A stretch of 64,000 nt of DNA from Bacteroidota bacterium (GTDB taxonomy: Bacteria; Bacteroidota; Ignavibacteria; UBA10030; UBA8401), in contig DATJPT010000003.1 in assembly GCA_035506275.1 (NCBI GenBank), positions 124,001-188,000 on the forward strand, read 5' to 3'. Position numbers and translations under genes: made by a program. The stretch's first letter is position 1; each line of letters begins with the position of its first letter. Positions 17,598-54,169 of this stretch are shown one piece after another. The notes under the pieces are model-generated. The model was given only the letters and a program-made list of their open reading frames with translations, ran no database searches and was not told where the DNA came from.

Positions 17598-17749
17598 TGC
17601 TATGAAACCCCGTTATCGTTCAGGTTTATTTCCATCCGCATTCCCCGCTCTAATTAGTTCAAATAAAAGCAGTTAGACCCGGGGGCGATTCATCCCCTTC
17701 ATTTTGCTTCGCGATCGGCATCTCCCCTCAAAAAATATCCTATTCTCTC

Positions 17750-17776
17750 TAATTTTTGGCCGGTACATGCCGATAA
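17750..17776 (+). promoter_or_regulatory. Sigma-28 (FliA-type) flagellin promoter
   Basis: TAAT (17750-17753), a spacer of exactly 15 bases, then GCCGATAA (17769-17776). This differs from the FliA consensus TAAA-N15-GCCGATAA at one position. It lies 86 bases upstream of the flagellin ATG, in the correct orientation. Together with the flgM-like gene downstream it implies sigma-28 control of the filament genes. No sigma-28 gene is in the window. Confidence 0.85.
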
Positions 17777-17862
17777 TAGTCTTAGAAGCTCACAAGGCTT
17801 TCACAAAAGACGGGCACGGAAGCCCACTTCAATCCACAAACCATACTTACAAGGAGGTAGTT

Positions 17863-19008
17863 ATGGCATCCACAGCTAGAATCAACACAAACATCGCTGC
17901 ATTGAACGCCCTCAACGCGTTGAATTCAGTGAACGCGGATCTTCAAGTCCACCAATTGCGGTTAGCGTCCGGTAAACGCATCAATACCGCAGCGGATGAT
18001 CCGTCAGGATTCGTTATTTCCAGCAAAATGGGCGGAACCCTCGCCGCGTTGAGTGCAGCGTCGGATAACGTCAGCTCTGCGCAGAACATCTATAACGTCG
18101 CAGAAGGCGGATATCAGACGATCGCCAACCTGATGACGCAGATCAAAGCTCAGCAAACCGAGTTCAATAACGGCGGACTCGGCACAGACGAGCAGAACGC
18201 AATCGCGACAACGATTTCGGACCTTGCAAAGGAAATCGATTCGACGATCGCCCAGACACAGTACAACGGGATAAACCTTATCAACGGGTCCTTTGTGGCT
18301 GGTGTCGGTCAGTCGGGCGGCAGTCTCACGTCTGGCGTTGCTTCAGCAGACGGAACAGTAACGGGTGTCGACGTTTCAGGAGCTAAAGCATCTGACACTT
18401 ACACCCTGAGCAACGTAGGCGCCGTGCTTACATTGACCCGGTCGAGCGATAATGCGACCGCATCAGTGACGATGGGTGCATCGACGGTAGGCGGAGCGCA
18501 AACGCTCAATTTTGCTAACCTTGGCGTTTCGATCAGCTACATGGGAACTGCGGCCGCCACGGGCGCAGCCAGTGCGACAGCGTTGGTCGGTGCCGGCACT
18601 ACGATCACCACAAATGCAGGCTCGACACCGTCGTTCCAGGTTGGCGATACGGGCGCGAATTTCGGTATGTCGCTTACGACAGCCGTAGATTCCACCTCTC
18701 TCCTCGGAACGGCAGCTGGCTCCATTACGGCAGCGCAAGTTGCCGGGCTGACCGTTGACACCGGTATGACGACCGTTCTCGATGCGATCGGCAGTATTGG
18801 TGCCCAGCAAAACCGCCTTATGGCGAAGCAGACTAACCTTTCGACCATGATCACGAACATTACGGCTTCGAAGAGCCAGATCACGGATGCTGACATTGCG
18901 GTCGAACAGATCGCGTCGGTGAAAGATCAGATCCTGCAACAGACTGCGACGGCACAGTTGGCCCAGGCCAATCAGTCACCGCAAGTCTTCTTGTCGTTGT
19001 TCAAGTAA
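17863..19008 (+). CDS. fliC: Flagellin
   Basis: This 381-residue filament subunit has the conserved N-terminal D0/D1 region (ARINTNIAALNALNALN, then QLRLASGKRINTAADDPSG) and the C-terminal one (ADIAVEQIASVKDQILQQ, ending LAQANQSPQVFLSLFK). These pair as coiled coils in the filament core. The middle (about residues 150-320) is a Gly/Ser/Thr/Ala-rich variable domain exposed on the filament surface. The ATG at 17863 follows AAGGAGG at the ideal distance. A sigma-28 promoter lies upstream and a hairpin follows. It is secreted by the flagellar type III apparatus with FliS (next gene) as chaperone. Confidence 0.97.
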   Translation: MASTARINTNIAALNALNALNSVNADLQVHQLRLASGKRINTAADDPSGFVISSKMGGTLAALSAASDNVSSAQNIYNVAEGGYQTIANLMTQIKAQQTEFNNGGLGTDEQNAIATTISDLAKEIDSTIAQTQYNGINLINGSFVAGVGQSGGSLTSGVASADGTVTGVDVSGAKASDTYTLSNVGAVLTLTRSSDNATASVTMGASTVGGAQTLNFANLGVSISYMGTAAATGAASATALVGAGTTITTNAGSTPSFQVGDTGANFGMSLTTAVDSTSLLGTAAGSITAAQVAGLTVDTGMTTVLDAIGSIGAQQNRLMAKQTNLSTMITNITASKSQITDADIAVEQIASVKDQILQQTATAQLAQANQSPQVFLSLFK

Positions 19009-19024
19009 CAGCCCATGAACGAGC

Positions 19025-19056
19025 GAGGGGCTCCGGCCGGCTGGCTTGAGCCCCTC
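19025..19056 (+). terminator. Hairpin after flagellin gene
   Basis: Nine-base perfect arms, GAGGGGCTC (19025-19033) and GAGCCCCTC (19048-19056), surround a 14-base loop and are followed by ACGTTCTT, only weakly T-rich. It may terminate most flagellin transcripts or stabilise the message while letting some transcription continue into fliS and fliD. Confidence 0.55.
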
Positions 19057-19110
19057 ACGTTCTTAGCAGAGTGTTGAAAGAGGAGAAGAGCCTGTTACTC
19101 ATAATCGAAC

Positions 19111-19539
19111 ATGAACGGCGAGGAAGACATGGAAACTGCAAATGTAAACTTGATTACGACGCTCGAAGCTGAAGAGGTGCAGCAAACACCTTCCGCTGAA
19201 CAGCATGCACAAATGATGAAGGCCGGCAGTCAGCACGCAATTGCGATCGCTGCGAATTCATACAGAAGAGAGCACCTGGTGAATCTGATGCCGGTTCAAG
19301 TGATCAAGAAACTGTACGACACGGCGATCTTCGCCCTGAAGAAAAAGGATTATGACCTTGCGCACCGGGCGATCACTCAGCTGATGCTCGGTTTGAATTT
19401 CGACTACGAGGAAATGGCGGGGGGATTGATGGGATTATATATGTACGCAAAAGAATGTATTCGCAAAGGCAAAATCGCCGAAGCGACAACCGTGCTGGAG
19501 GAGTTACGTTCCGCATGGACCCAAGCATTTAATCTCTAG
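19111..19539 (+). CDS. fliS: Flagellar export chaperone FliS
   Basis: This protein of up to 142 residues has a C-terminal two-thirds matching FliS: KKLYDTAIFALKKKDYDLAH, then ITQLMLGLNFDYEEMAGGLMGLYMYAKECI and a final LEELRSAWTQAF. All are helical, as in the four-helix bundle that clasps the flagellin C-terminus and stops early polymerisation. It has a longer, Glu/Gln-rich N-terminal extension than most FliS proteins. An alternative ATG at 19129 has GAGGAA immediately before it and may be the true start, giving 136 residues. It lies between flagellin and fliD as expected. Confidence 0.85.
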   Translation: MNGEEDMETANVNLITTLEAEEVQQTPSAEQHAQMMKAGSQHAIAIAANSYRREHLVNLMPVQVIKKLYDTAIFALKKKDYDLAHRAITQLMLGLNFDYEEMAGGLMGLYMYAKECIRKGKIAEATTVLEELRSAWTQAFNL

Positions 19540-19560
19540 AGTGGGAGTGAGGACAGGACA

Positions 19561-21072
19561 ATGGCAACCGGACCAGCGACACAAGTATCATCGACTATAC
19601 TGTCTGCTGTTCAACAATTTCAGACGGACCTGCAGACTGAAGAAGTCTCGCCTTTGCAGACTCAGGTAACGGCGATCAACGCCCAGATTTCCGCCCTTGG
19701 GACCATGAAGAACAACCTGCAGACCCTGTATAACACGTCCACTGCGATGGCGGTAACAAATAGATCGTCTACTTTTTTGACCCTCATTGCGACAAGCTCG
19801 ATGCCGAATATCGTTTCGGCGACCGCCACGGCAACCGCCGCTTCGGGAAACCATTCAATACTTGTCACGCAGCTTGCAAAGACAGACGTGGCGCTTTCCA
19901 ATCAGCTCAATAGCTCTTCTGGAAGCATTGTGACGGCCGAGGGGACGGGGGTGAAAACGATCCAGGTGGGCAATCAGACGGTCAACGTCACTCTTTCCAG
20001 CGGTGATTCCAACAGCACGGTATTGACAAATATCGCGAATGCAGTCAATGCCATGAAAGGGAATGTGACCGCATCCGTCGTAACGGATACTTCCTCGACA
20101 AGCCGGTTGGTGTTTCAATCGACTCAGACAGGCTCGGCGAACGCTATTACGCTGTCCGACACCGCCGGGACGCTTCTTTCCAATCTCGGTCTCTCGTCGG
20201 CAGTCATTTCAGCCAGAACCGCTTTTAACTCGACGACCGCCGGGTTCATGAACCAGAGTACATCGGCACTCGATGCGAACTTCAAGCTTGACGGCATCGA
20301 CATGGTCCGATCCAGCAATACGGTCACCGATGCACTTACGGGGGTGACTTTAGGGCTCGCTGGCCTTCAGAGCCCGACAGACACGCCCGCTACGATCAAT
20401 GTTGGCATCAACACGAATCAGATCCAAACGATGGTTCAGCAGTTTATCACAAACTATAATGCAGCCCTCTCATACGTCAATAATGAAACTGCGATGATAT
20501 CCGGGGCCAGCACGACGGGGAGCACTGCAACCGTGACACCGCAGATCTTTGCCGGGAACCCGACGTTCACGATGCTGAAGGTAAATCTTCAGAGCGTGAT
20601 CTGGAATCAAGTGACCTCGGCGAAACCGGGCAATCCTGAGAACCTCTTTCAGATCGGGATCACGCCGGGCGCCGACGGTACGCTCAGCATCTCGGATACA
20701 TCGAAATTCAATGCCGCCATGGCGGCCGATCCGACCGAGATCACGGATCTTTTCAATTCGTCGAACGGCGTTGCCGTGCAGATGAACAATCTTCTGAAAC
20801 CCTTTGTTACACCGACGACGGGCAGGATAGACTCGATGAATAACGTGGACACGAGCGAGGTGTCGAGCCTCAATGACAGGATCAAAACCCTCAACGCCCA
20901 GATCGCGAACCAGACAACGCAGTACCAGAACGAACTTGTGCAACTGCAGGCGGAGTATGAAGATATGCTTGCAACGCAAAATGAGATGGCGAGTATTTTA
21001 ACCGGCAGCCTGTACCCTGACACGACGACCGGCACGACCACGAGCACATCGTCAACATCGACGACAGGGTAG
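19561..21072 (+). CDS. fliD: Flagellar filament cap protein FliD
   Basis: This 503-residue cap protein forms the pentameric plate at the filament tip under which flagellin folds. The N-terminal helix begins with SSTILSAVQQFQTDLQTEEV, and the central Ser/Thr-rich beta domain includes NHSILVTQLAKTDVALSNQL, the FliD_N-type motif. The C-terminal domain has IQTMVQQFITNYNAALSYVN, FQIGITPGADGTLSISDTSK and a final coiled coil (IKTLNAQIANQTTQYQNELV). The tail is a Thr/Ser repeat (TTTGTTTSTSSTSTTG), probably disordered. It begins 21 bases after fliS. Confidence 0.93.
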   Translation: MATGPATQVSSTILSAVQQFQTDLQTEEVSPLQTQVTAINAQISALGTMKNNLQTLYNTSTAMAVTNRSSTFLTLIATSSMPNIVSATATATAASGNHSILVTQLAKTDVALSNQLNSSSGSIVTAEGTGVKTIQVGNQTVNVTLSSGDSNSTVLTNIANAVNAMKGNVTASVVTDTSSTSRLVFQSTQTGSANAITLSDTAGTLLSNLGLSSAVISARTAFNSTTAGFMNQSTSALDANFKLDGIDMVRSSNTVTDALTGVTLGLAGLQSPTDTPATINVGINTNQIQTMVQQFITNYNAALSYVNNETAMISGASTTGSTATVTPQIFAGNPTFTMLKVNLQSVIWNQVTSAKPGNPENLFQIGITPGADGTLSISDTSKFNAAMAADPTEITDLFNSSNGVAVQMNNLLKPFVTPTTGRIDSMNNVDTSEVSSLNDRIKTLNAQIANQTTQYQNELVQLQAEYEDMLATQNEMASILTGSLYPDTTTGTTTSTSSTSTTG

Positions 21073-25059: not shown

Positions 25060-26709
25060 ATGTCGACATCTCCAAGTGCCAGTATTCCGGTAGAGAAACA
25101 GCCAAGCGCATTGACAATTCTCGTCGTCGACGACGTCGAAGAAAACCTTGAGCTGCTGCAGGATTTGTTCACCGAAAGCGGATACAATGTCATCGCCGCC
25201 CGCAGCGGCGTCGAGGCGTTTGAGGTGTTCAACCGCGAAACGGTCCATCTCATCATCGCCGATGCGATGATGCCGCGGATGGACGGGTTTCAGCTTTGCA
25301 GGAAGGTGAAAGAAAATCCCAAGAACGCCAAGACCCCTTTCATTATTTACACGGGGAACTATGTCGATGAGGAGGATCAGGAATTGGCCCGCAACGTCGG
25401 CGTGGATCGGTACGTGATGAAATATGCAGGCCTGGGTTCCTTGATCGAAGCGGTCCGCGATGTCACCCTCCAGAATTACGGCATTCAGCCGGAACAGGTT
25501 CCGGAAAGCTCGGCGTCGATCGACGATCAATCGTTTCTCGAGAAGCACCACACGCTCGTGACGAAAAAACTCGAAGAAAAGATGAAAGAGCTTGAGATGT
25601 ACGCCGCCACCCTCGCCCGGAAAAACCGGGAATTGCAGGTATCCGAGCTCCGCTACCGCGCGCTGTTCGAGAATGCAAGCGTCGCGATCTTTGTCGTTGA
25701 CAGCAAAACAGAGTCGATCGTTGACGTCAACAACCAGGGGATCGCGCTGCTCGGGTACTCAAAGGATGAACTGCTCGGCCTTCCCTCGCTCCCGTTCATT
25801 GAAGGCGATCCCTTCAACGCTTCGCTCTCTCAGAGCAAAGACATCGTCGCACAGGAAGCGGCGATGAAGACAAAGGACGGCGATTCGATTGACGTCGACG
25901 TGAGCGCGGGATCGGTCTCGGTATTGAATGATTCACGAGTCATGTTATTCGTCCGAGACATTACCGAACAGAAAAAGATCCGGAACTCGCTAATGCAAAT
26001 GGAGAAAATGTCGCTCATGGGACGATTGGCCGCCGGCATCGCCCACGAGATCCGCAACCCGTTGGCAGGGGTGACTCTTAACCTCCAGTATCTTCAAAGG
26101 AAAATCGATAAGACATCCCCCGATTTTGAATCGATCGCCGCTGCGCTCGAAGGAGCAGAACGAATCCAGCATGTCATCGAAGATACTCTCGGCCTTGCCA
26201 GGGTGACCCCGCCGTCGCTCCAGCAGCACTCGATCAACGCCATCATCGCCCGCTCGCTGCATTTTGTCTCTCTGGCGCTTCAGCAAAAAGCGATTGCCCT
26301 CACGACCTCCTTCGATGAAAACGTTCCCGATGTGATGGTGGACCAAAAACAGATTCAGCAGGTAATGCTGAACATTCTGCAGAACGCGATCGACGCAACG
26401 CCGCCGAACGGAGCGATATCGGTCTCGACGAAAACTGGAGAAATGCATGCAGGAGAAGCGGCTCTGCCCTGCGTCGAGACGACCATCCAGGATTCCGGCG
26501 TCGGGATTCCGGTCGAAATGAAAGCAGTGCTGTTCGAGCCGTTCCGTACGACAAAATCCGGAGGGACCGGGCTCGGCCTGGCATTATCAAAGTACATCAT
26601 CGGACGTCATCACGGCGACATCGCGCTCGAGTCGCCGTCCGAGGGGGGAACACTGGTTCGCATTATTTTACCATCACAGCCAACAAGCAACGGAGCGTGG
26701 AATGGATAA
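25060..26709 (+). CDS. Hybrid kinase: receiver, PAS and HisKA/HATPase domains
   Basis: This 549-residue soluble protein has an N-terminal receiver (ILVVDDVEENLELLQ, phosphorylation site D68 in LIIADAMMPRMDG), a coiled linker, a PAS domain (about residues 195-310), and then a kinase core with RLAAGIAHEIRNPLAG (H329). The ATPase segment includes LNILQNAIDATPP, DSGVGIP and GGTGLGLALSKYI. A receiver in front of the kinase means it may be the acceptor of one phosphorelay and the donor of another. Its last 8 bases overlap the NtrC-type gene, the likely output partner, in the arrangement of NtrB/NtrC- or FlrB/FlrC-type pairs. Confidence 0.92.
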   Translation: MSTSPSASIPVEKQPSALTILVVDDVEENLELLQDLFTESGYNVIAARSGVEAFEVFNRETVHLIIADAMMPRMDGFQLCRKVKENPKNAKTPFIIYTGNYVDEEDQELARNVGVDRYVMKYAGLGSLIEAVRDVTLQNYGIQPEQVPESSASIDDQSFLEKHHTLVTKKLEEKMKELEMYAATLARKNRELQVSELRYRALFENASVAIFVVDSKTESIVDVNNQGIALLGYSKDELLGLPSLPFIEGDPFNASLSQSKDIVAQEAAMKTKDGDSIDVDVSAGSVSVLNDSRVMLFVRDITEQKKIRNSLMQMEKMSLMGRLAAGIAHEIRNPLAGVTLNLQYLQRKIDKTSPDFESIAAALEGAERIQHVIEDTLGLARVTPPSLQQHSINAIIARSLHFVSLALQQKAIALTTSFDENVPDVMVDQKQIQQVMLNILQNAIDATPPNGAISVSTKTGEMHAGEAALPCVETTIQDSGVGIPVEMKAVLFEPFRTTKSGGTGLGLALSKYIIGRHHGDIALESPSEGGTLVRIILPSQPTSNGAWNG

Positions 26710-28117
26710 AGGCAGAATCTTAGTCGCAGACGATGAAAGGTCGTTGACAGTTTCGGTGAAGAACGTTCTCGCCGATGCTGGATATTCGGTTGGAGTGAGC
26801 TCCAACAGGGATGAGTTCCTCGCGCAGCTCTCCTCGTTCAACCCGGATGTCATTTTGCTCGACATCTATCTCGGGGCGGCAAACGGTATCCAGATCCTTA
26901 AACAGATCAAGTTCGACGGATGGAAGGCCCCGGTGATCATGATGACGGCACACTCCGACGTTTCGCTGGCGGTGCAGGCGATGAAGGAAGGGGCGGCGGA
27001 CTTTGTCGTGAAACCCTTCGACCTCAACCACCTTATCGTTCTCATCGAGAAGAATCTCGAGTTCGCTCACCTCGAAAGCCGAGTTTCCATGCTGCAGGAG
27101 GAGCTTGAAAAGCAGCGGTCGCGGAGCGGCATCATCGGCAGCAGCGCCGCCCTCCGGCGCGTCCTCGAAGTGACGGAAAAGCTCGCCTCTGGGGAAAGTA
27201 CGACGGTGCTTATCGAAGGAGAGAGCGGAACGGGAAAGGAGCTTCTCGCGCGGTTCATCCATCAGAAGAGCGCGGTCCGCAGCAACCAGCCTTTCATCGC
27301 CCTTAACTGCGCCGCGATTCCCAAAGACCTCGCGGAGAGCGAATTTTTCGGCTACGAAAAAGGAGCTTTCACCGGCGCTACGGAAAGGATGAAGCAGGGG
27401 AAATTTGAAATGGCGAACGGAGGAACGATCCTGCTTGACGAGGTCGGCGAGTTGTCGCTTGACATGCAGGTGAAGCTCCTCAGGGTTCTCGAGGAACGGA
27501 AGTTCTATCGCCTCGGAGGAACAAGGGAAATTTCAGTCGACGTCCGGGTCATCGCCGCATCGAACAGAAATCTTGCCAACGAGGTCGAGGCTGGCAGATT
27601 CCGGGGAGACCTCTTCTACCGGTTGAATGTTGCCGTCGTGAAGATCCCGCCCTTGCGCGAACGAAAAGAGGACATTGAAGCCTTGACCTACGCATTCGTC
27701 CAGGAATTCGCACGAAAATTCAACAAACAGGTTCCTCAGATCGATCCCGATGTCAAGGAGGTACTTCTCAGGCTTCCGTGGAAAGGCAACGTGCGGGAAC
27801 TGAGAAACGCCATCGAACGCATCGTTCTGCTCAACGACACCCCCGTGATCACGAGGAACGAAATTGCCTTTCTTTCGGGGGACGAGGGGAAGGGGGATGG
27901 ATCGGCGCGGCCTGAGAACGGTGAATTCATATTGAAAGTACCCGCGAAGGGGATCGGCATGTCCGAGGTGCTTAAAGATCTTATCCTCAAGACTCTTGAG
28001 ATCACGGACGGCAATCAGGTGCAGGCGGCGAAGGTCTTGGGGATCACTCGTTCGAAGCTCCGGTACAAAATGGACCAGCTTAAGATCAAATCGGGGCAGC
28101 GGGTTTATTCGGCATAA
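26702..28117 (+). CDS. NtrC-family sigma-54-dependent response regulator
   Basis: This 471-residue regulator has a receiver (phosphorylation site D54, VILLDIYLGAANG), an AAA+ domain with Walker A GESGTGKE and the sigma-54 contact loop GAFTGA, Walker B GTILLDEVGEL, the sensor region DVRVIAASNRNL, and a Fis-type helix-turn-helix at the C-terminus (NQVQAAKVLGITRSKLRYKM). It activates sigma-54 promoters by ATP-driven remodelling. Three sigma-54-like promoters lie in this window (38.6, 45.2 and 54.1 kb), so it is a good candidate for the flagellar master activator. That link is an inference, since sigma-54 itself is not encoded here. Confidence 0.95.
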   Translation: MDKGRILVADDERSLTVSVKNVLADAGYSVGVSSNRDEFLAQLSSFNPDVILLDIYLGAANGIQILKQIKFDGWKAPVIMMTAHSDVSLAVQAMKEGAADFVVKPFDLNHLIVLIEKNLEFAHLESRVSMLQEELEKQRSRSGIIGSSAALRRVLEVTEKLASGESTTVLIEGESGTGKELLARFIHQKSAVRSNQPFIALNCAAIPKDLAESEFFGYEKGAFTGATERMKQGKFEMANGGTILLDEVGELSLDMQVKLLRVLEERKFYRLGGTREISVDVRVIAASNRNLANEVEAGRFRGDLFYRLNVAVVKIPPLRERKEDIEALTYAFVQEFARKFNKQVPQIDPDVKEVLLRLPWKGNVRELRNAIERIVLLNDTPVITRNEIAFLSGDEGKGDGSARPENGEFILKVPAKGIGMSEVLKDLILKTLEITDGNQVQAAKVLGITRSKLRYKMDQLKIKSGQRVYSA

Positions 28118-38391: not shown

Positions 38392-38599
38392 TTCTCTACG
38401 CTGGATTTTTTTCCGGTAAGGAGTCAAAGCAGCATAACAATCCTCTCTTCGCGATTTGCAGGTTTTTTTCGTTGCACTATTGGACATGTGGCTAATAACC
38501 GCCAGCCTGCCCCCCCCTTTATTCCATTTCCCCTCTTCGATATCGCTAAAAACTCTAAGGATTTCGTAAGTATTTCACTTTCGGCCCATTATTCCCAGC

Positions 38600-38615
38600 T
38601 GGCACGCGCTTTGAA
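38600..38615 (+). promoter_or_regulatory. Sigma-54-like promoter before the Cys-rich gene pair
   Basis: TGGCACG, four bases, then TTGAA, close to the consensus TGGCACG-N4-TTGCA. The -24 GG is present and the -12 element has GA in place of GC at the correct 10-base spacing. It lies 64 bases upstream of the ATG at 38664, within a 272-base gap that otherwise holds no gene. An NtrC-type activator is encoded at 26.7 kb. Confidence 0.6.
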
Positions 38616-38663
38616 TTCTTGCATTGCAGCGACAAAAGAATCATGATTCGCGGCTAATGGACA

Positions 38664-38933
38664 ATGAGAACAAGCAAGAAGACAGTTGACCGGTCATCAA
38701 GCGCCGGGGTGTTCAAACAGTGCACGATGTGCGGCAAAAAATGGTCCACGAAGGACGCTTTTCTGGATGATAGTGAGATCCGATTGAACGGATACCAGTG
38801 GAACAAGAAGAGGCTTCGCGCAGGAGAGAATCTCGCAGGCTTATTGATTTTCACGCATGCGAAAGAAGAATGCTTTACGACGTTGGGAATAGAGGCAAGA
38901 AAATTCAAAGTTTCTTCCCGCACTGATGAATGA
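38664..38933 (+). CDS. Small CxxC protein, hypothetical
   Basis: This 89-residue protein of unknown family begins with a basic Ser/Lys/Thr-rich segment, then FKQCTMCGKKWSTKDAFL, a CxxC knuckle resembling a zinc ribbon half. Later come FTHAKEEC and a final GIEARKFKV segment. The distant His and Cys could complete a metal site (C-x2-C...H-x4-C). A sigma-54-like promoter lies upstream, and the second small Cys protein starts 48 bases downstream on the same strand. It is expressed, if the promoter is real, with flagellar or nitrogen-type control. No function can be assigned. Confidence 0.7.
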   Translation: MRTSKKTVDRSSSAGVFKQCTMCGKKWSTKDAFLDDSEIRLNGYQWNKKRLRAGENLAGLLIFTHAKEECFTTLGIEARKFKVSSRTDE

Positions 38934-38981
38934 CGAGCACTCAACTCATGTTGTCCGACGACATATTACAAGGAGGTTACG

Positions 38982-39194
38982 ATGCAATCTGAAGAGGTGG
39001 TTTCGGAATTTGTGCTGACGGTGGACGGCCGCGAGCAATGTCCTGAATGCGGGCATCTATGGACAGACGAAGGGACGGCTCATTACCATGACTGCCGTTA
39101 TTTCTTCGTTGAAGGCGACAGTGAAGAGGACGAATATTTCTTCGAAGGATCGCCCGATGACGCACACATGCCCGTAATGAAAACTGCAGCATAG
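38982..39194 (+). CDS. Small acidic zinc-ribbon-like protein, hypothetical
   Basis: This 70-residue, strongly acidic protein has a central CPECGHLWTDEGTAHYHDC: a CxxC followed by HxHxC, a plausible zinc site. The rest is Glu/Asp-rich (VEGDSEEDEYFFEGSPDDAH). It has an excellent ribosome-binding site (AAGGAGG with 5-base spacing), showing that it is a real gene. It follows the other small Cys protein by 48 bases and probably shares its transcript. The next gene, a chemoreceptor, is 219 bases away. I recognise no named family. Confidence 0.75.
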   Translation: MQSEEVVSEFVLTVDGREQCPECGHLWTDEGTAHYHDCRYFFVEGDSEEDEYFFEGSPDDAHMPVMKTAA

Positions 39195-39413: not shown

Positions 39414-41159
39414 ATGGCATGGTTCCATAATCTGAAAATATCGACGAAACTGCTCTTGGGATTTTCTGTGGCCTCGGTTGTAGCGTGCATCATCGCGTAT
39501 TCAGGATTACGAGGAATCTACGCCGTGAACGATTCCGCCGAATCGCTCTATCAGAATGAAACAGTGCCGGTCGGAGAGATCGGACGGATCGCAAAGGACT
39601 TTCAGCGAGTGCGTGCAAATCTGGCGTTCCTGATGTTCGTCACCGAAGACGGGGAGGTCGAGCATGATCAGCATGTTGTGGTCGCTCTGACAAAAGAAAT
39701 GGATTCTCTGGGCGCCTCATTCAGGAAAAGCCTTTCAAGCGAAGAGATGAAAGAGACGATGGCAAAATACGACCAGGCTCGAAATATCTTTCTTCCTCTT
39801 CAGGAAAAAATTGTCGCATTAGCAGTGGCGGGGAAAAAGCAGGAAGCGAAAACGCTGTTTCTTGTCGGCGATGCGCGCGATGCCGCTCATGCGATTGAGG
39901 CGGATATCGAGAAGCTGGTTGAACTCAAGCGTCAAAGTGCCGGGGCCGCAGTCCAGGCAAATAATGATGCAACATCGAAGGCTACCATTATCGTGCTTAG
40001 CTCCCTTATTGTGGGTTTATCGCTAGCAGTCTTTCTTGGATTGCTTATTGCCCGTTACATAAAACGGGGCCTCGCAGAGCTGGTGGAAAATGCGGAGGAG
40101 ATCTCTCAGGGCAATTTGACCATCGATGTCGTTCAGCGCACCAGCGACGAAATTGGAGTTCTGACCGGCGCCTTTGCGCGCATGGCTCTCAATTTGAGAG
40201 AAATATTGACGAGTCTCACGGAAGCCTCGGCCTCCATTGCGAGTGCCACGAGCCAGATCAACAGCAGCACTGAAGAGATGGCGGCGGGGGCCGAAGAGCA
40301 GACCTCACAAGCCAGCGAAGTTGCGAGTGCAGTCGAGGAGATGACAAAGACGATTGTGGAGAACTCGAAGAATGCCGGAACCACCGCCGACACGGCAAAG
40401 CAGGCGAAGGATGCCGCTGAACTTGGCGGAACCGTAGTGCAAGAGACAATTATCGGGATGAAGCGTATCGCGGAAGTGGTCAACAAATCCAGCGAGACGG
40501 TCAGAGCGCTGGGCAGATCGAGCGATCAAATAGGGGAAATTATCGGGGTGATCGACGATATCGCCGATCAGACAAACTTATTGGCGCTGAATGCGGCCAT
40601 TGAAGCTGCCCGTGCGGGTGAGCAAGGGAGGGGATTTGCGGTCGTAGCCGACGAAGTTCGGAAACTCGCGGAACGGACCACAAAGGCCACCAAAGAAATT
40701 GCAGGGATGATAAAGGCGATTCAGTCAGAGACTGGGGGCGCGGTCGCTTCAATGACCGAAGGGACACAGCAGGTGGGCGAAGGGATCAAACTTGCCGATA
40801 AAGCCGGAATATCGCTCAACGAAATAGTCAGGGTCTCTCAAATGGTGACCGACATGGTTTCACAGATCGCCGCTGCAAGCGAGCAACAATCGAGCGCTAG
40901 CGAACAAATTTCGAAAAATGTCGAAGGGATCAGCACTGTCACAAATCAGACTGCTTCCGGCGTTCAGCAGATCGCGCGTGCGGCCGAAGACCTGAATCGT
41001 TTGACGGAAAATCTACAACAGATGCTTGGTAAATTCAGACTTACCGGGAAAAAGGCAGTGAGCCCACCACAGAACGTCACCGCGAGCGTCGAGAAACCGC
41101 ATGTCAAATCAAACCTGGCCGTCCGTCATAACGGGAAGCTGGTGCACAATGGACATTAA
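39414..41159 (+). CDS. Methyl-accepting chemotaxis protein, four-helix-bundle sensor
   Basis: This 581-residue chemoreceptor has a first membrane helix near residues 13-33, a periplasmic four-helix-bundle-type sensor of about 150 residues with no Cache features, and a second membrane helix near 188-212. A HAMP domain (about 213-266) and a long cytoplasmic coiled coil follow, with the hairpin tip [20 protein letters not shown] and [13 protein letters not shown]. After the coil comes a Pro/Val-rich linker and the C-terminal motif [10 protein letters not shown], which is also present in the second receptor of this cluster. There is no NWETF-type tether. It would signal to CheA/CheW; cheW follows 22 bases downstream. 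Confidence 0.95.
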
Positions 41160-41181: not shown

Positions 41182-41685
41182 ATGACGGACACGATCGATA
41201 TCAGAAACAAAGCGCAGAACAGCGGGGCCGGCGACGAACTGCTTCAACTTGTAAGCTTCAAGATCGGCGAAGAGGAATTCGGCGTCGATATCCTCAAGGT
41301 CCAGGAAATAAACAGAATGCTTGAGGTCACAAGAGTCCCCAATGCTCCGGAGTACGTCGACGGCGTGATCAATCTTCGCGGCAAGGTGATCCCCATTATC
41401 GACTTACGCCGCCGGTTCGGCATGGAGCGCCGGGAAAAAGACAAGAACACGCGCATTGTCGTGGTGGAATTGGAGGGAAAAGTCGTCGGGTTTGTTGTCG
41501 ATGCCGTCAGCGAAGTTCTCCGTATTCCCAAAAGCGTGACGGAACCGCCGCCCCCCATCGTCGCGGGGATAGAAACAGATTATATCACAGCCGTCGGAAA
41601 GCTGGAGGACAGACTGCTGATTTTGCTCGACCTGGAAAAAGTTCTTCTCAAAGAGGAATTGCATGCTGTGGAAGAAACCGCATAG
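41182..41685 (+). CDS. cheW: Chemotaxis coupling protein CheW
   Basis: This 167-residue scaffold protein links chemoreceptors to CheA. It shows the CheW pattern: LQLVSFKIGEEEFGVDILKV, then VINLRGKVIPIIDLRRRFGM and VVVELEGKVVGFVVDAVSEV. A short C-terminal tail follows. AAGGAAG precedes the ATG. It lies directly after the first receptor and is probably co-transcribed with it. CheA is encoded 9 kb further on. Confidence 0.96.
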   Translation: MTDTIDIRNKAQNSGAGDELLQLVSFKIGEEEFGVDILKVQEINRMLEVTRVPNAPEYVDGVINLRGKVIPIIDLRRRFGMERREKDKNTRIVVVELEGKVVGFVVDAVSEVLRIPKSVTEPPPPIVAGIETDYITAVGKLEDRLLILLDLEKVLLKEELHAVEETA

Positions 41686-41795
41686 CTCGGCCTCTTGCGG
41701 AGATTCTTGAATAGGCTTTCGGAGGAAGGGCGTGGTCCTCTCGCCAGCTCCAGTTCTTTTTGCACTCATCATCTATTAGAACAGAATACAATGCT

Positions 41796-42356
41796 ATGAA
41801 AAGAAAGCACGTTCATAAGAATCCGACGATCACTCTCATGTTGTTTGGCCTGATCCTCAGCGGCGCTCACCATATCGAAGCTCAGTCAAAACCGTCATAC
41901 GGGCAGCAAATTGCCGTGATCAAGATCTTGCAGCCGGACGTGAAGATCATCGGCGTTATGGGAGCAACATTGTCCGAGAAGGATGTTCAAGATATCACGC
42001 GGGCCGGACTTGCTCAGGGGATGCAAATCGTTGTCGGTCTCCCGCAGAATCCCCGTGAAATATCCGATATCTATAAAAGGTTGTTAAATGAAAAAAAGAT
42101 CCAAGTTCTGTGGGTTCCGAAAGGTAGCGACGATATGATGATGGGGATTGGCTTTGAGTATCTTCGTTCCACAACCCTTCTGGATAAAATAGCCTTGTAT
42201 ATCCCGAATCCTGACCTCCTCCCGTCCGGCGCGCTTTGCAGCGTTCAGATGGAGAGTGGAAAACTCACTGTGTACGTGAATCAGAAAATTGCGACGTTGC
42301 TCGGCGCTCGCGTCCCTGCCGAGCAAAGCGAAAGCGTAACATTCGTATCCCGATAA
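41796..42356 (+). CDS. Periplasmic protein of unknown function, paired with a chemoreceptor
   Basis: This 186-residue protein has an N-terminal signal peptide (hydrophobic residues about 11-27, then HIEAQ). The mature part reads as an alpha/beta fold: IAVIKILQPDVKIIGVMG, then LAQGMQIVVGLPQNPREI, VLWVPKGSDDMMMGIGFEYL and SVQMESGKLTVYVNQKIATLL. It is reminiscent of small periplasmic-binding or YfiR-like proteins, but no family is certain. It ends 18 bases before a chemoreceptor gene, so a ligand-binding or inhibitor role for that receptor's periplasmic domain is plausible. I chose the ATG at 41796, since a longer reading from 41760 would spoil the signal peptide. Confidence 0.75.
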   Translation: MKRKHVHKNPTITLMLFGLILSGAHHIEAQSKPSYGQQIAVIKILQPDVKIIGVMGATLSEKDVQDITRAGLAQGMQIVVGLPQNPREISDIYKRLLNEKKIQVLWVPKGSDDMMMGIGFEYLRSTTLLDKIALYIPNPDLLPSGALCSVQMESGKLTVYVNQKIATLLGARVPAEQSESVTFVSR

Positions 42357-45241: not shown

Positions 45242-45256
45242 TGGCACAGTACTTGT
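45242..45256 (+). promoter_or_regulatory. Sigma-54-like promoter before fapA
   Basis: TGGCACA, four bases, then TTGT, one change from the consensus in the -12 element (GT for GC) with the 10-base spacing kept. It is 66 bases before a TTG start of fapA and 102 before a GTG start. The 176-base gap has no gene. Confidence 0.5.
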
Positions 45257-45307
45257 CATAGTACGGATGAAGAAGAGTTCCTCTGCAACGAGGCGTTCAT
45301 TGCAGGG

Positions 45308-46762: not shown

Positions 46763-48205
46763 ATGAAAAATGAATTACGTGAGAAACTCGCTGCACTCCT
46801 CTCCGCCGAGGATCCGTCGCTCCGAAGGCGGGCTGCTGAAGAACTTGCGGAAACGAAAGGGTTCACTCCGATCGCTGCGCTGGCCGCCGCGTTGCGCGAT
46901 GAAAATAAAGGAGTTCGCGATTCTGCGCTACGCTCTCTATCGATAATCGGTAGCGAGAACGTTGCGCACGCCGCCGTCGAATATATTGCCGATGAGAATA
47001 TTGTAACGCGAAATCTTGCAGCAGAATTGCTGCTTAAATTGAAAAGTTCTTCTGTCGGCGCTCTTCTCCCGTACCTGTACGATGTCAACCAGGATGTGCG
47101 AAAATTCGCTGTTGATATCCTCGGCCTCATCGGGAACGAGCAGACCGTCGACCATATTCTGCCGTTGCTTGATGATGCCGACGAAAATGTCGTCGTCTCG
47201 GCCGCCGAAGCCCTCGGGAATATCCGCAGCACGCGTGCCGTTCCCCACCTTGTGAGAATTTTTAAGCTGCACGATTTTGCCAAGACGACGATCGCCGAAG
47301 CGCTCGGGAAAATCGGCGGTGACGAAGCGAGCGAATTCCTGCTGAAGTATTTTTCAGCGATGGTCAGCCGGCAGGATATTGACCCCCTTGTTCTCTATGC
47401 GGTTGCCGATTCCATTGCCCTCATCGGGTCCGAAGACGCGCTTCCGATCCTCCGGAAGAGCTTGCCAAGTGTTAAAGGGAGCGTCCGGTATGTTCTGGTG
47501 CATGCGATGGTGAGGATTCTCGAGCGGTACCGGCATCCATTCGGCGAGCTCGAGGAACTTCAAGGCGATCTGGTACACGCGCTTGAATACGACAACATCG
47601 CGGTGAAGATGAGCGCGGCGATGGCATTGGCCGACATGGATGGCGTGGAAGTGACCATGGCGCTTGCCGGCGTTGTCGGGTTGTCGGAGGAGCTCGATGA
47701 CCTTGTTATCCCTATCCTTCTCCGGCGGAATGAAACCTTTGGCGCCATTGTAGAGCTTGCGCGCCGCGGCAGGATCGTCCCTGTGAAGGAAATCATCACG
47801 CTGATCGGCAGGGTCTCGGCAGGCGTCGACTACCACAGCCTGTCTCCTCAATTACTCGACCAGCAGCTGGACCAGTTGCAGCGTGCGTTTGATTTCGTTA
47901 CGACCGCGTGGAAGGATGGGAATGAAGAGACCCGCGGCGCTGTCATCGATACGATGTTCCGTCTCGACGGCGACCGGGCATTCGAATATCTCTCCAAGGT
48001 CACCGAAGAGCCAGACCCGTGGCTGCGGATTCATGTCATCGAACTTGTCGCTTCGCTCGAAAACCGGGGTATTTCCGACTTCATCGTCCGCTTTCTCGGC
48101 GACGACGACGAAATTGTCCGCGGGGTGGCGGCGGCGACGTTAGCATCAAGAGAGAATAATCCCCGTTTAGCGTCCGCAGCCTCAAGTCCAATTGACCACC
48201 GTTAG
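46763..48205 (+). CDS. HEAT-repeat protein in the chemotaxis cluster
   Basis: This 480-residue protein is built of about 30-residue helical repeats, for example LRRRAAEELAETKGFTPIAA, VRKFAVDILGLIGNEQTVDH and VVSAAEALGNIRSTRAVPHL, typical of HEAT/PBS-lyase-type scaffolds. There is no signal peptide or catalytic motif. Such solenoids usually bind other proteins. The gene follows fapA by 39 bases and precedes cheR by 9 bases, so it is probably translated with the chemotaxis proteins and may organise the array or link FapA to it. That role is an inference from position only. Confidence 0.85.
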   Translation: MKNELREKLAALLSAEDPSLRRRAAEELAETKGFTPIAALAAALRDENKGVRDSALRSLSIIGSENVAHAAVEYIADENIVTRNLAAELLLKLKSSSVGALLPYLYDVNQDVRKFAVDILGLIGNEQTVDHILPLLDDADENVVVSAAEALGNIRSTRAVPHLVRIFKLHDFAKTTIAEALGKIGGDEASEFLLKYFSAMVSRQDIDPLVLYAVADSIALIGSEDALPILRKSLPSVKGSVRYVLVHAMVRILERYRHPFGELEELQGDLVHALEYDNIAVKMSAAMALADMDGVEVTMALAGVVGLSEELDDLVIPILLRRNETFGAIVELARRGRIVPVKEIITLIGRVSAGVDYHSLSPQLLDQQLDQLQRAFDFVTTAWKDGNEETRGAVIDTMFRLDGDRAFEYLSKVTEEPDPWLRIHVIELVASLENRGISDFIVRFLGDDDEIVRGVAAATLASRENNPRLASAASSPIDHR

Positions 48206-52651: not shown

Positions 52652-53742
52652 GCGGAATCATTAGAGTCATCGTTGTCGACGATTCTGCCTTTATGAGGAA
52701 ATCTCTTTCGATGCTTCTGGAATCCGACCCGGGCATAAAGGTGGTGGCAACCGCACGCGATGGGAAGGAAGGGATCGAAAAGATCAGGGAGTTCAAGCCG
52801 GATATCGTCACGATGGACATCGAAATGCCGGTAATGACCGGCCTTGAAGCGCTGGCGGCCATCATGAAGGAGATGCCCCTCCCTGTTCTGATGGTCAGCT
52901 CGTTGACGACCGAAGGAGCTCAGGCGACCCTCGATGCGCTTGCCCTTGGAGCTGTCGATTTCATCTCGAAAGAGCTCTCATATGTCTCTTTGGATATCGT
53001 CAAAATTAAGGACGACCTGATTTCAAAGGTCAAAGAAATTGTCCGCAGCCGTTCCATCATCTTTCGCCTGCAGCGAATCAGAGCTGTGGGCCAGCATATC
53101 CAGGCACCGGCAGCAAAAAGGCCTTCGGTGCGGCCGTCCGTCTATGCTCCCCCGGAGAATAGAGAATTCAAAGCCGTCGTGCTTGGAATTTCAACGGGAG
53201 GGCCGTTCGCCCTCCTTGAGACAATTCCGAAGCTTCCGGAGAACTTTCCCCTGGGTATCGCCGTTGTGCAGCACATGCCCCCCCGTTTTACGTTTTCGCT
53301 TGCGGAGAGGCTGAACGGTTTGAGCCGGGTTCACGTGAAAGAGGCCGCTGACGGCGATCCTCTGGAGCCCGGAGTTGTTTACATCGCCCCGGGGGGAAGG
53401 CACATGACCTTTGCGCGATCGGCTAGAGCTGTCCGGATAAGGATCTCCGACGAACCGAAAAATGTTCTGTACCATCCTTCCGCCGATATTATGATGACTT
53501 CTGCAGCCGAAACTATCGACAGCCCTTTACTGGGAGTCATCATGACCGGCATGGGGAAGGATGGTCTTGAAGGGCTGAAGTTGATACGAAAAAAACGGGG
53601 CTATGTCATCGCGCAGGATCAGGAATCGTGCGTTGTTTACGGAATGCCGAAGGCTGCCATCGACGAGGGAGTTGCAAACATGGTTGTGCCTCTTGACTCA
53701 ATGGCCGATACGATTGTCAAGGTTGTGCAGGGAGCTGATTGA
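52648..53742 (+). CDS. cheB: Receptor methylesterase CheB
   Basis: This 364-residue enzyme has a receiver (VIVVDDSAFMRKSLSMLLES, D57 in IVTMDIEMPVMTG), a linker, and the methylesterase domain with GISTGGPFALLETI (nucleophile Ser), AVVQHMPPRFTFSLAERL (His) and GVIMTGMGKDGLEG (Asp). It removes methyl groups from chemoreceptors and opposes CheR. The ATG at 52648 overlaps the cheA stop, so translation is coupled. The last base overlaps the next small gene. Confidence 0.96.
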   Translation: MSGIIRVIVVDDSAFMRKSLSMLLESDPGIKVVATARDGKEGIEKIREFKPDIVTMDIEMPVMTGLEALAAIMKEMPLPVLMVSSLTTEGAQATLDALALGAVDFISKELSYVSLDIVKIKDDLISKVKEIVRSRSIIFRLQRIRAVGQHIQAPAAKRPSVRPSVYAPPENREFKAVVLGISTGGPFALLETIPKLPENFPLGIAVVQHMPPRFTFSLAERLNGLSRVHVKEAADGDPLEPGVVYIAPGGRHMTFARSARAVRIRISDEPKNVLYHPSADIMMTSAAETIDSPLLGVIMTGMGKDGLEGLKLIRKKRGYVIAQDQESCVVYGMPKAAIDEGVANMVVPLDSMADTIVKVVQGAD

Positions 53743-54011
53743 TGAGAAAAAGTCAAGAGCAAAGACCTTCTTCGTTTGTCGATTTTGCCTCCTTTCAGAA
53801 TGTCCGCGTCGCGAAAAGAGGGGGGAAGGGCAATGTCCTCAAAGCCGACGCTGTAGACTCAAACGGAGCCGTGAAAATTGAGGTTGAAGCCACCGAATCT
53901 GGCCAGCCCGGGATCATTCTCCACCGCAACGGTGAATTTATCGAGAGTATCGAGGTCGTTTGCACCTGCGGCAAGCATGCAGAGATCAAACTTGAGTATG
54001 ATGGTGATTAG
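53742..54011 (+). CDS. Hypothetical small protein after cheB
   Basis: This 89-residue protein has an ATG that shares a base with the cheB stop (TGATG), so it is translated with the chemotaxis genes. It has a basic first part (VAKRGGKGNVLKAD), a beta-rich middle (GAVKIEVEATESGQPGIILH, then FIESIEVV) and CTCGKHAEIKLEYDGD at the end, a CxC pair. I know no family for it. A role in chemotaxis or motor control is suggested by position only. A 98-base gap follows before the sigma-54-like promoter of the basal-body operon. Confidence 0.75.
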   Translation: MRKSQEQRPSSFVDFASFQNVRVAKRGGKGNVLKADAVDSNGAVKIEVEATESGQPGIILHRNGEFIESIEVVCTCGKHAEIKLEYDGD

Positions 54012-54109
54012 TTGACACCTGCCTCATATTAACCATCACCGTCTTCGATCGCCTCCCGTCCAAAAGATAGAACACCCCTAAATGCTAAAGAACCGCCCCT
54101 ATCCCACTT

Positions 54110-54124
54110 TGGCATTCTTCTTGC
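54110..54124 (+). promoter_or_regulatory. Sigma-54-like promoter of the flagellar basal-body operon
   Basis: TGGCATT, four bases, then TTGC, with both invariant pairs GG (-24) and GC (-12) separated by exactly 10 bases. It is on the + strand, 46 bases before the ATG of a 51-residue membrane protein and about 250 bases before flgB, in a gap with no other gene. It fits known sigma-54 control of class II flagellar genes and the NtrC-type activator encoded at 26.7 kb. Confidence 0.72.
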
Positions 54125-54169
54125 CGACTAATATAGAAAATTGAGTTGAACCGAGCGGAGGATAAAGAC

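Follow-up and report, generated by a model that had tools for sequence, protein, structure and literature searches.

The two small adjacent genes described here, A and B, probably encode cytoplasmic proteins that are folded around zinc, switched on by a sigma-54 activator and employed as accessories in the programme for flagella and chemotaxis, perhaps as adaptors or regulators. They lie in a stretch of 64 kb (hereafter the window, meaning the whole stretch of DNA that was analysed) belonging to an assembly of 3.7 Mb in 20 contigs. The relatives used for comparison are, where they carry names, metagenome bins of the Ignavibacteriae or 'Bacteroidetes'; a genome was taken as flagellated when it had a FliG match below 1e-30, and 53 near-complete genomes were counted.

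The locus and its two small proteins

According to a reading of the sequence with partial Pfam checks, A and B are enclosed by one large flagellar and chemotaxis cluster, which runs from flagellin and fliD (17704–21072) through an NtrC-type activator and multi-PAS kinases to A and B, then through the genes for a chemoreceptor, CheW, FapA, a HEAT protein, CheR, CheZ, CheA and CheB and, after a 90-aa CxCG protein, to flgB, flgC, fliE, fliF, fliG and fliI. The genes around A and B are:

38664..38933, + strand: gene A, 89 aa, CxxC...HxxxxC zinc-knuckle family
38970..38976, + strand: ribosome-binding site of gene B, AAGGAGG, read from the sequence
38982..39194, + strand: gene B, 70 aa, CxxCxH...HxxxC zinc-knuckle family, acidic (pI 4.1)
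39414..41159, + strand: chemoreceptor (MCP), directly 3' of B
41182..41685, + strand: CheW

The gap of 48 nt between A and B, the 64 nt between the promoter-like element and the ATG of A, the coordinates, the lengths of the two proteins, the ribosome-binding site and the Cys/His motifs are all as claimed in a preliminary description of this DNA. No intrinsic terminator was found between B and the chemoreceptor gene, and the joined arrangement A-B-chemoreceptor occurs both in the window and in the sister genome G036.

Three other products of the cluster deserve mention in their own right. A 198-aa protein (41760–42356), encoded between cheW and a second chemoreceptor gene, has a weak ABC substrate-binding match, and its homologues adjoin chemoreceptors in relatives. 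The 480-aa HEAT-repeat protein (46763–48205) recurs in the che operon of the lineage beside cheR. A third small Cys protein, of 90 aa (53739–54011) and with the C-terminal sequence CTCGKHAEIKLEY, is encoded between cheB and flgB; it has no match in Pfam, it occupies the same place in five f1 relatives (G003, G007, G012, G016 and G017), and a CxCG protein resembling it precedes flgB in G024.

Homologues of A were found in 15 of 60 related genomes (its own genome counted) and strong homologues of B (E < 1e-12) in 14, with a weaker one in G025. For A, pairwise dN/dS is 0.05–0.16 in the four closest pairs and rises to at most 0.37 as the pairs become more distant. The two B pairs that allowed a calculation gave 0.09–0.20, the other listed B pairs being saturated at silent sites. 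With values well below 1, A and B are, to judge from these comparisons, real conserved genes under purifying selection.

The preliminary description had taken A and B for small proteins of a metal-binding type, a reading that would fall if their Cys and His residues were not conserved in homologues. These residues are invariant: among 14 aligned members, A has the ligand set C20, C23, H65 and C70, together with the equally invariant F17, W27, F33, L34, D36, Y44 and G59, and B, again among 14 aligned members, has C20, C23, H25, H34 and C38. Cys/His sets of this kind are typical of zinc sites, and zinc binding by A and by B is likely on the strength of this conservation. In the AlphaFold2 model of A (mean pLDDT 75.6), the core consists largely of beta structure and the region of the knuckle is predicted with high confidence; B is poorly predicted (model pLDDT 59). 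A is basic in the window genome (pI 9.6), its pI ranging from 6.3 to 9.9 across the relatives.

Searches of Pfam, NCBIfam, PHROG and the PDB with A and B gave chance-level matches, none of them significant, in agreement with the earlier view that the two proteins correspond to no standard flagellar or chemotaxis component; the structure search was run with the model of A. A falls short of the C2H2 zinc-finger profile (PF13894), for which it scores 13.4 bits where 27 are required. When A was compared with the beta-tent folds (yippee, cereblon and Mis18), nothing stood out: the Mis18 yippee domain gave a Z of 3.1 over 62 residues, and a cereblon isoform was a weak match (Foldseek E 0.6). Kinship between A and B is not supported: a profile comparison aligned only the 16-residue CxxCGxxW knuckle, with a probability of 39%.

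Promoter, upstream palindrome and candidate activator

The regulatory features of the window are:

26702..28117, + strand: NtrC-type sigma-54 activator with receiver, AAA+ and Fis domains, candidate palindrome binder
38489..38504, no strand assigned: enhancer-like near-palindrome TGGCTAATAACCGCCA, 111 nt before the -24 box, best match in the 64 kb
38600..38615, + strand: sigma-54-type -24/-12 element TGGCACGCGCTTTGAA before A, predicted start at about 38626
45242..45257, + strand: sigma-54-type element 66 nt before fapA (matrix from other genomes)
54020..54035, no strand assigned: second copy of the palindrome, before flgB
54110..54125, + strand: sigma-54-type element 263 nt before flgB, flgB operon (matrix from other genomes)

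Taking TGGCAC-N5-TTGC(A/T) at -24/-12 as the criterion for a sigma-54 promoter, the element at 38600 reads TGGCACG-N4-TTGAA. The term 'near-consensus', which had been applied to it, is apt: the -24 half is perfect, and the -12 half, TTGAA, falls short of perfection by one core mismatch, an A in place of C. The -12 box also deviates in G036 and L134 (TTGGA). The 38600 element is more than a chance occurrence. When both strands of the 64 kb are scanned with a hand-set sigma-54 matrix, no other site scores as well. With a matrix built from other genomes only, it ranks third in the window, after the sites before flgB and fapA, and scores 13.6 bits versus 16.3–22.1 for all of the other genomes' sites used; about 0.0017 such sites are expected per 300 bp. 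A sigma-54-type element was found 38–81 nt upstream of the matched stretch in 13 of the 15 A genes, the distant A genes of G024 and G029 having none directly upstream, and all 12 flgB genes in the loci examined have one. Across the genome, the strict pattern TGGCAYN5YTGCW is no commoner than its reversed control, nor do flagellated relatives stand clearly apart from non-flagellated ones in how often they contain TGGCATN5TTGC. Since these genome-wide counts are undistinguished, the frequency of promoters proves nothing by itself, and the case is carried by conservation and by pairing with the palindrome.

The palindrome, which is absent from the preliminary description, was found by a dyad search followed by a pattern search and has the consensus TGGCTAATATTAGCCA. 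With a matrix trained on other genomes, the site at 38489 scores 16.2 bits, the next unrelated site in the window scores 10.6, and the two strong palindromes of the window, at 38489 and 54020, are those before A and flgB. In relatives, the palindrome lies 107–118 nt before most A promoters, 85–97 nt before B promoters and 75–79 nt before most flgB promoters; in G036 it is weak (6.5 bits). Pairs of palindrome plus promoter numbered two in the real window and zero in 20 simulated ones. The raw count of palindromes over the whole genome is no higher than that of the reversed control, so it is the pairing with promoters that constitutes the evidence. Within three mismatches, there are three palindromes in the whole 3.7 Mb; the third, outside the window (contig C9 near 239838; L216 839–1189, minus strand), is followed at 101–116 nt by a strict sigma-54 site and then by a gene for 116 aa, a homologue of the gene directly 3' of A in G030 and G035. 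In relatives, the homologue of this gene lies directly 3' of A and upstream of HDOD.

Between the palindrome and the promoter of A, a run of eight C (38510–38517) is the only G/C run of at least eight in the window. Slippage at this run would alter the spacing between enhancer and promoter, and phase variation is conceivable.

The genome encodes RpoN (PF04552 match at C19:393955–394428, E 8e-56). The flagellated genomes among those compared have orthologues of the NtrC-type protein at 26702–28117, with 53–76% identity, and the only FliG-positive genomes lacking one are G034, which is 62% complete, and G058, which has a fragment of the activator at a contig end. Among near-complete FliG-negative genomes, only G028 has a match, at 44%. 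For all of the NCBIfam models listed, those of FlbD and FlgR among them, the protein scores less than the curated cutoff. We infer that it is the natural binder of the palindrome. The element before A had been described as a flagellar-type promoter; this description is borne out by a promoter class common to A and flgB, by the presence of RpoN and by a flagellum-linked activator of the NtrC type, and sigma-54 regulation of A and B is a well-supported prediction.

Occurrence with flagella, gene context and origin

A is present in 12 of the 18 flagellated genomes and in none of the 35 other near-complete ones (Fisher P = 7e-8), and A or B in 16 of the 18 versus 0 of the 35, counts that come from related and hence non-independent genomes, some of them incomplete. 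Two near-complete flagellated genomes, G005 and G055, have neither gene, which argues that A and B are not essential for flagella but are accessory parts.

Directly 3' of A lies cheW (at 12 nt or overlapping), a chemoreceptor gene or the gene preceding HDOD, so that A heads operons running on into cheW, chemoreceptor or HDOD genes; it is also found just upstream of the flgB operon. B commonly heads an operon of receiver, HEAT, cheR, cheZ, cheA and cheB genes, another of its placements being between cheB and chemoreceptors.

The family of A extends well beyond this lineage. A search with a DNA pattern yielded 117 stretches, all or nearly all of which match the A profile, from the Desulfobacterota, Nitrospirota, Kiritimatiellota, Planctomycetota and others; outside the Bacteroidota group, matches to the profile reach 1e-24. 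The family of these other phyla (FKxCxxC...W...FLxD...GYQ...H...C) has the same domain as A, but its proteins tend to be longer and to carry a Cys-rich tail, and most of its genes lack the promoter element and flagellar or che neighbours. Its neighbourhoods have no common partner; two-component genes recur in them, an enrichment not being demonstrated. This large family of many phyla (L059–L176) often carries a CPGYCL...CECA tail and occurs in tandem copies in L061, L071 and L169; three of its members were searched against Pfam and NCBIfam and had no match.

When 395 genomes of the phylum were searched with the profile, A turned up almost exclusively in the same order, with a single marginal match besides. 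In a tree built from 92 columns, which gives little resolution inside branches, the flagellum-linked A branch and two Kryptonia sequences stand apart from the rest with 98% SH-aLRT. Because the broad family mostly lacks the promoter and the flagellum-linked branch is separate, A appears to be a zinc-knuckle protein of wide distribution, so far undescribed, that was recruited into the flagellar regulon of this lineage, perhaps once.

Mechanism, alternatives and related systems

In the mechanism that we favour, the activator (26702–28117) would bind the palindrome at 38489–38504 and activate RNA polymerase–sigma-54 at 38600, and A and B would thereby be made together with the early flgB basal-body operon. 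Each would be a small cytoplasmic protein, probably folded around one zinc held by Cys and His, and would serve as a protein–protein adaptor or regulator on the chemosensory or flagellar side; a structural part of the flagellum is less likely. The adaptor or regulator role, suggested by the usual place of A or B at the start of an operon that goes on to genes for chemoreceptors, CheW or HDOD or to the che genes, is the least certain part of this explanation and is a guess guided by the operons. A bolder version, which we hold only tentatively, is that A and B form an undescribed zinc-dependent checkpoint or coupler from the chemoreceptors or the activator to flagellar assembly, recruited from the widespread zinc-knuckle family.

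Many small zinc-finger proteins bind nucleic acid and regulate genes, and the size and knuckle motifs of A and B, with the basic charge of A in the window genome, would suit direct regulation of flagellar or chemotaxis genes at the DNA or mRNA level; this is nevertheless quite unlikely, given that the charge of A varies among relatives, that B is strongly acidic here and that the searches gave no DNA-binding family or fold. Another alternative has A or B controlling the sigma-54 regulon by protecting RpoN or acting as the feedback partner of the activator. Its precedent is FlgZ (HP0958) of Helicobacter pylori, a DUF164 protein whose zinc ribbon serves to protect RpoN in the control of flagella (PMC3372290) and which resembles A and B in being a small protein of zinc-ribbon type connected with sigma-54-dependent flagellar control. 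Both A and B belong to the predicted sigma-54 regulon and have zinc-knuckle motifs, and an activator-like gene lies directly 5' of A in G018 and an activator near A in G030, G035 and G043. However, FlgZ has two CxxC motifs (PMC3372290), whereas A and B have one each plus His/Cys (HxxxxC in A), and with no DUF164 among the Pfam matches at E<=1, their membership of that family was rejected; moreover, RpoN is kept in flagellated genomes without A or B, and cheW or a chemoreceptor gene adjoins A more often than the activator does. We consider this alternative unlikely. A view of the promoter-like element as a leftover without function, and of A and B as mere bystanders in a flagellar cluster, would fit the imperfect -12 box and the few flagellated genomes without both genes, but it is very improbable in view of an element, a palindrome and a spacing that are conserved between families of the order, of the purifying selection on both genes and of their absence from all 35 near-complete FliG-negative genomes.

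NtrC-type flagellar activators include FleQ/FlrC in Pseudomonas and Vibrio, FlbD in Caulobacter and FlgR in Campylobacter. The link between sigma-54 and flagella has been discussed (PMC12316311), and no description of sigma-54 flagellar control in Ignavibacteria was found in the open-access papers searched. The circuit proposed here resembles such systems in its -24/-12 element, upstream palindrome, RpoN, basal-body operon within the promoter class and receiver/AAA+/Fis activator encoded in the flagellar cluster; it differs from those known in its palindrome, TGGCTAATATTAGCCA, and in a promoter predicted to drive two undescribed small proteins as well. That tiny zinc-finger proteins can matter for motility follows from the one-domain zinc finger micro-proteins of Haloferax volcanii, some of which are needed for swarming or biofilm formation (PMC6562870). 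They are tiny, single-domain and of the zinc-finger type, as A and B are, but they are archaeal and have no link to sigma-54 or a flagellar operon, and comparison with A and B gave no significant match, the HVO_0758 model reaching E 0.26 against one member of the B family.

The sequence alone outlines an apparently complete flagellar circuit, with activator, enhancer palindrome, sigma-54 promoters and targets, for a lineage within the Bacteroidota group. With promoter and enhancer predicted to the base, the model is directly testable. Two small protein families that track flagella can now be named. Members of the A family occur in many phyla, and neither Pfam nor NCBIfam contains it, so that a single finding on its function would allow many unnamed genes to be annotated. 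The switch shared with flagellar genes and the fact that, among 53 genomes, all carriers are flagellated make it likely that A and B are overlooked accessory parts of the swimming and chemotaxis system in flagellated Ignavibacteria-like bacteria.
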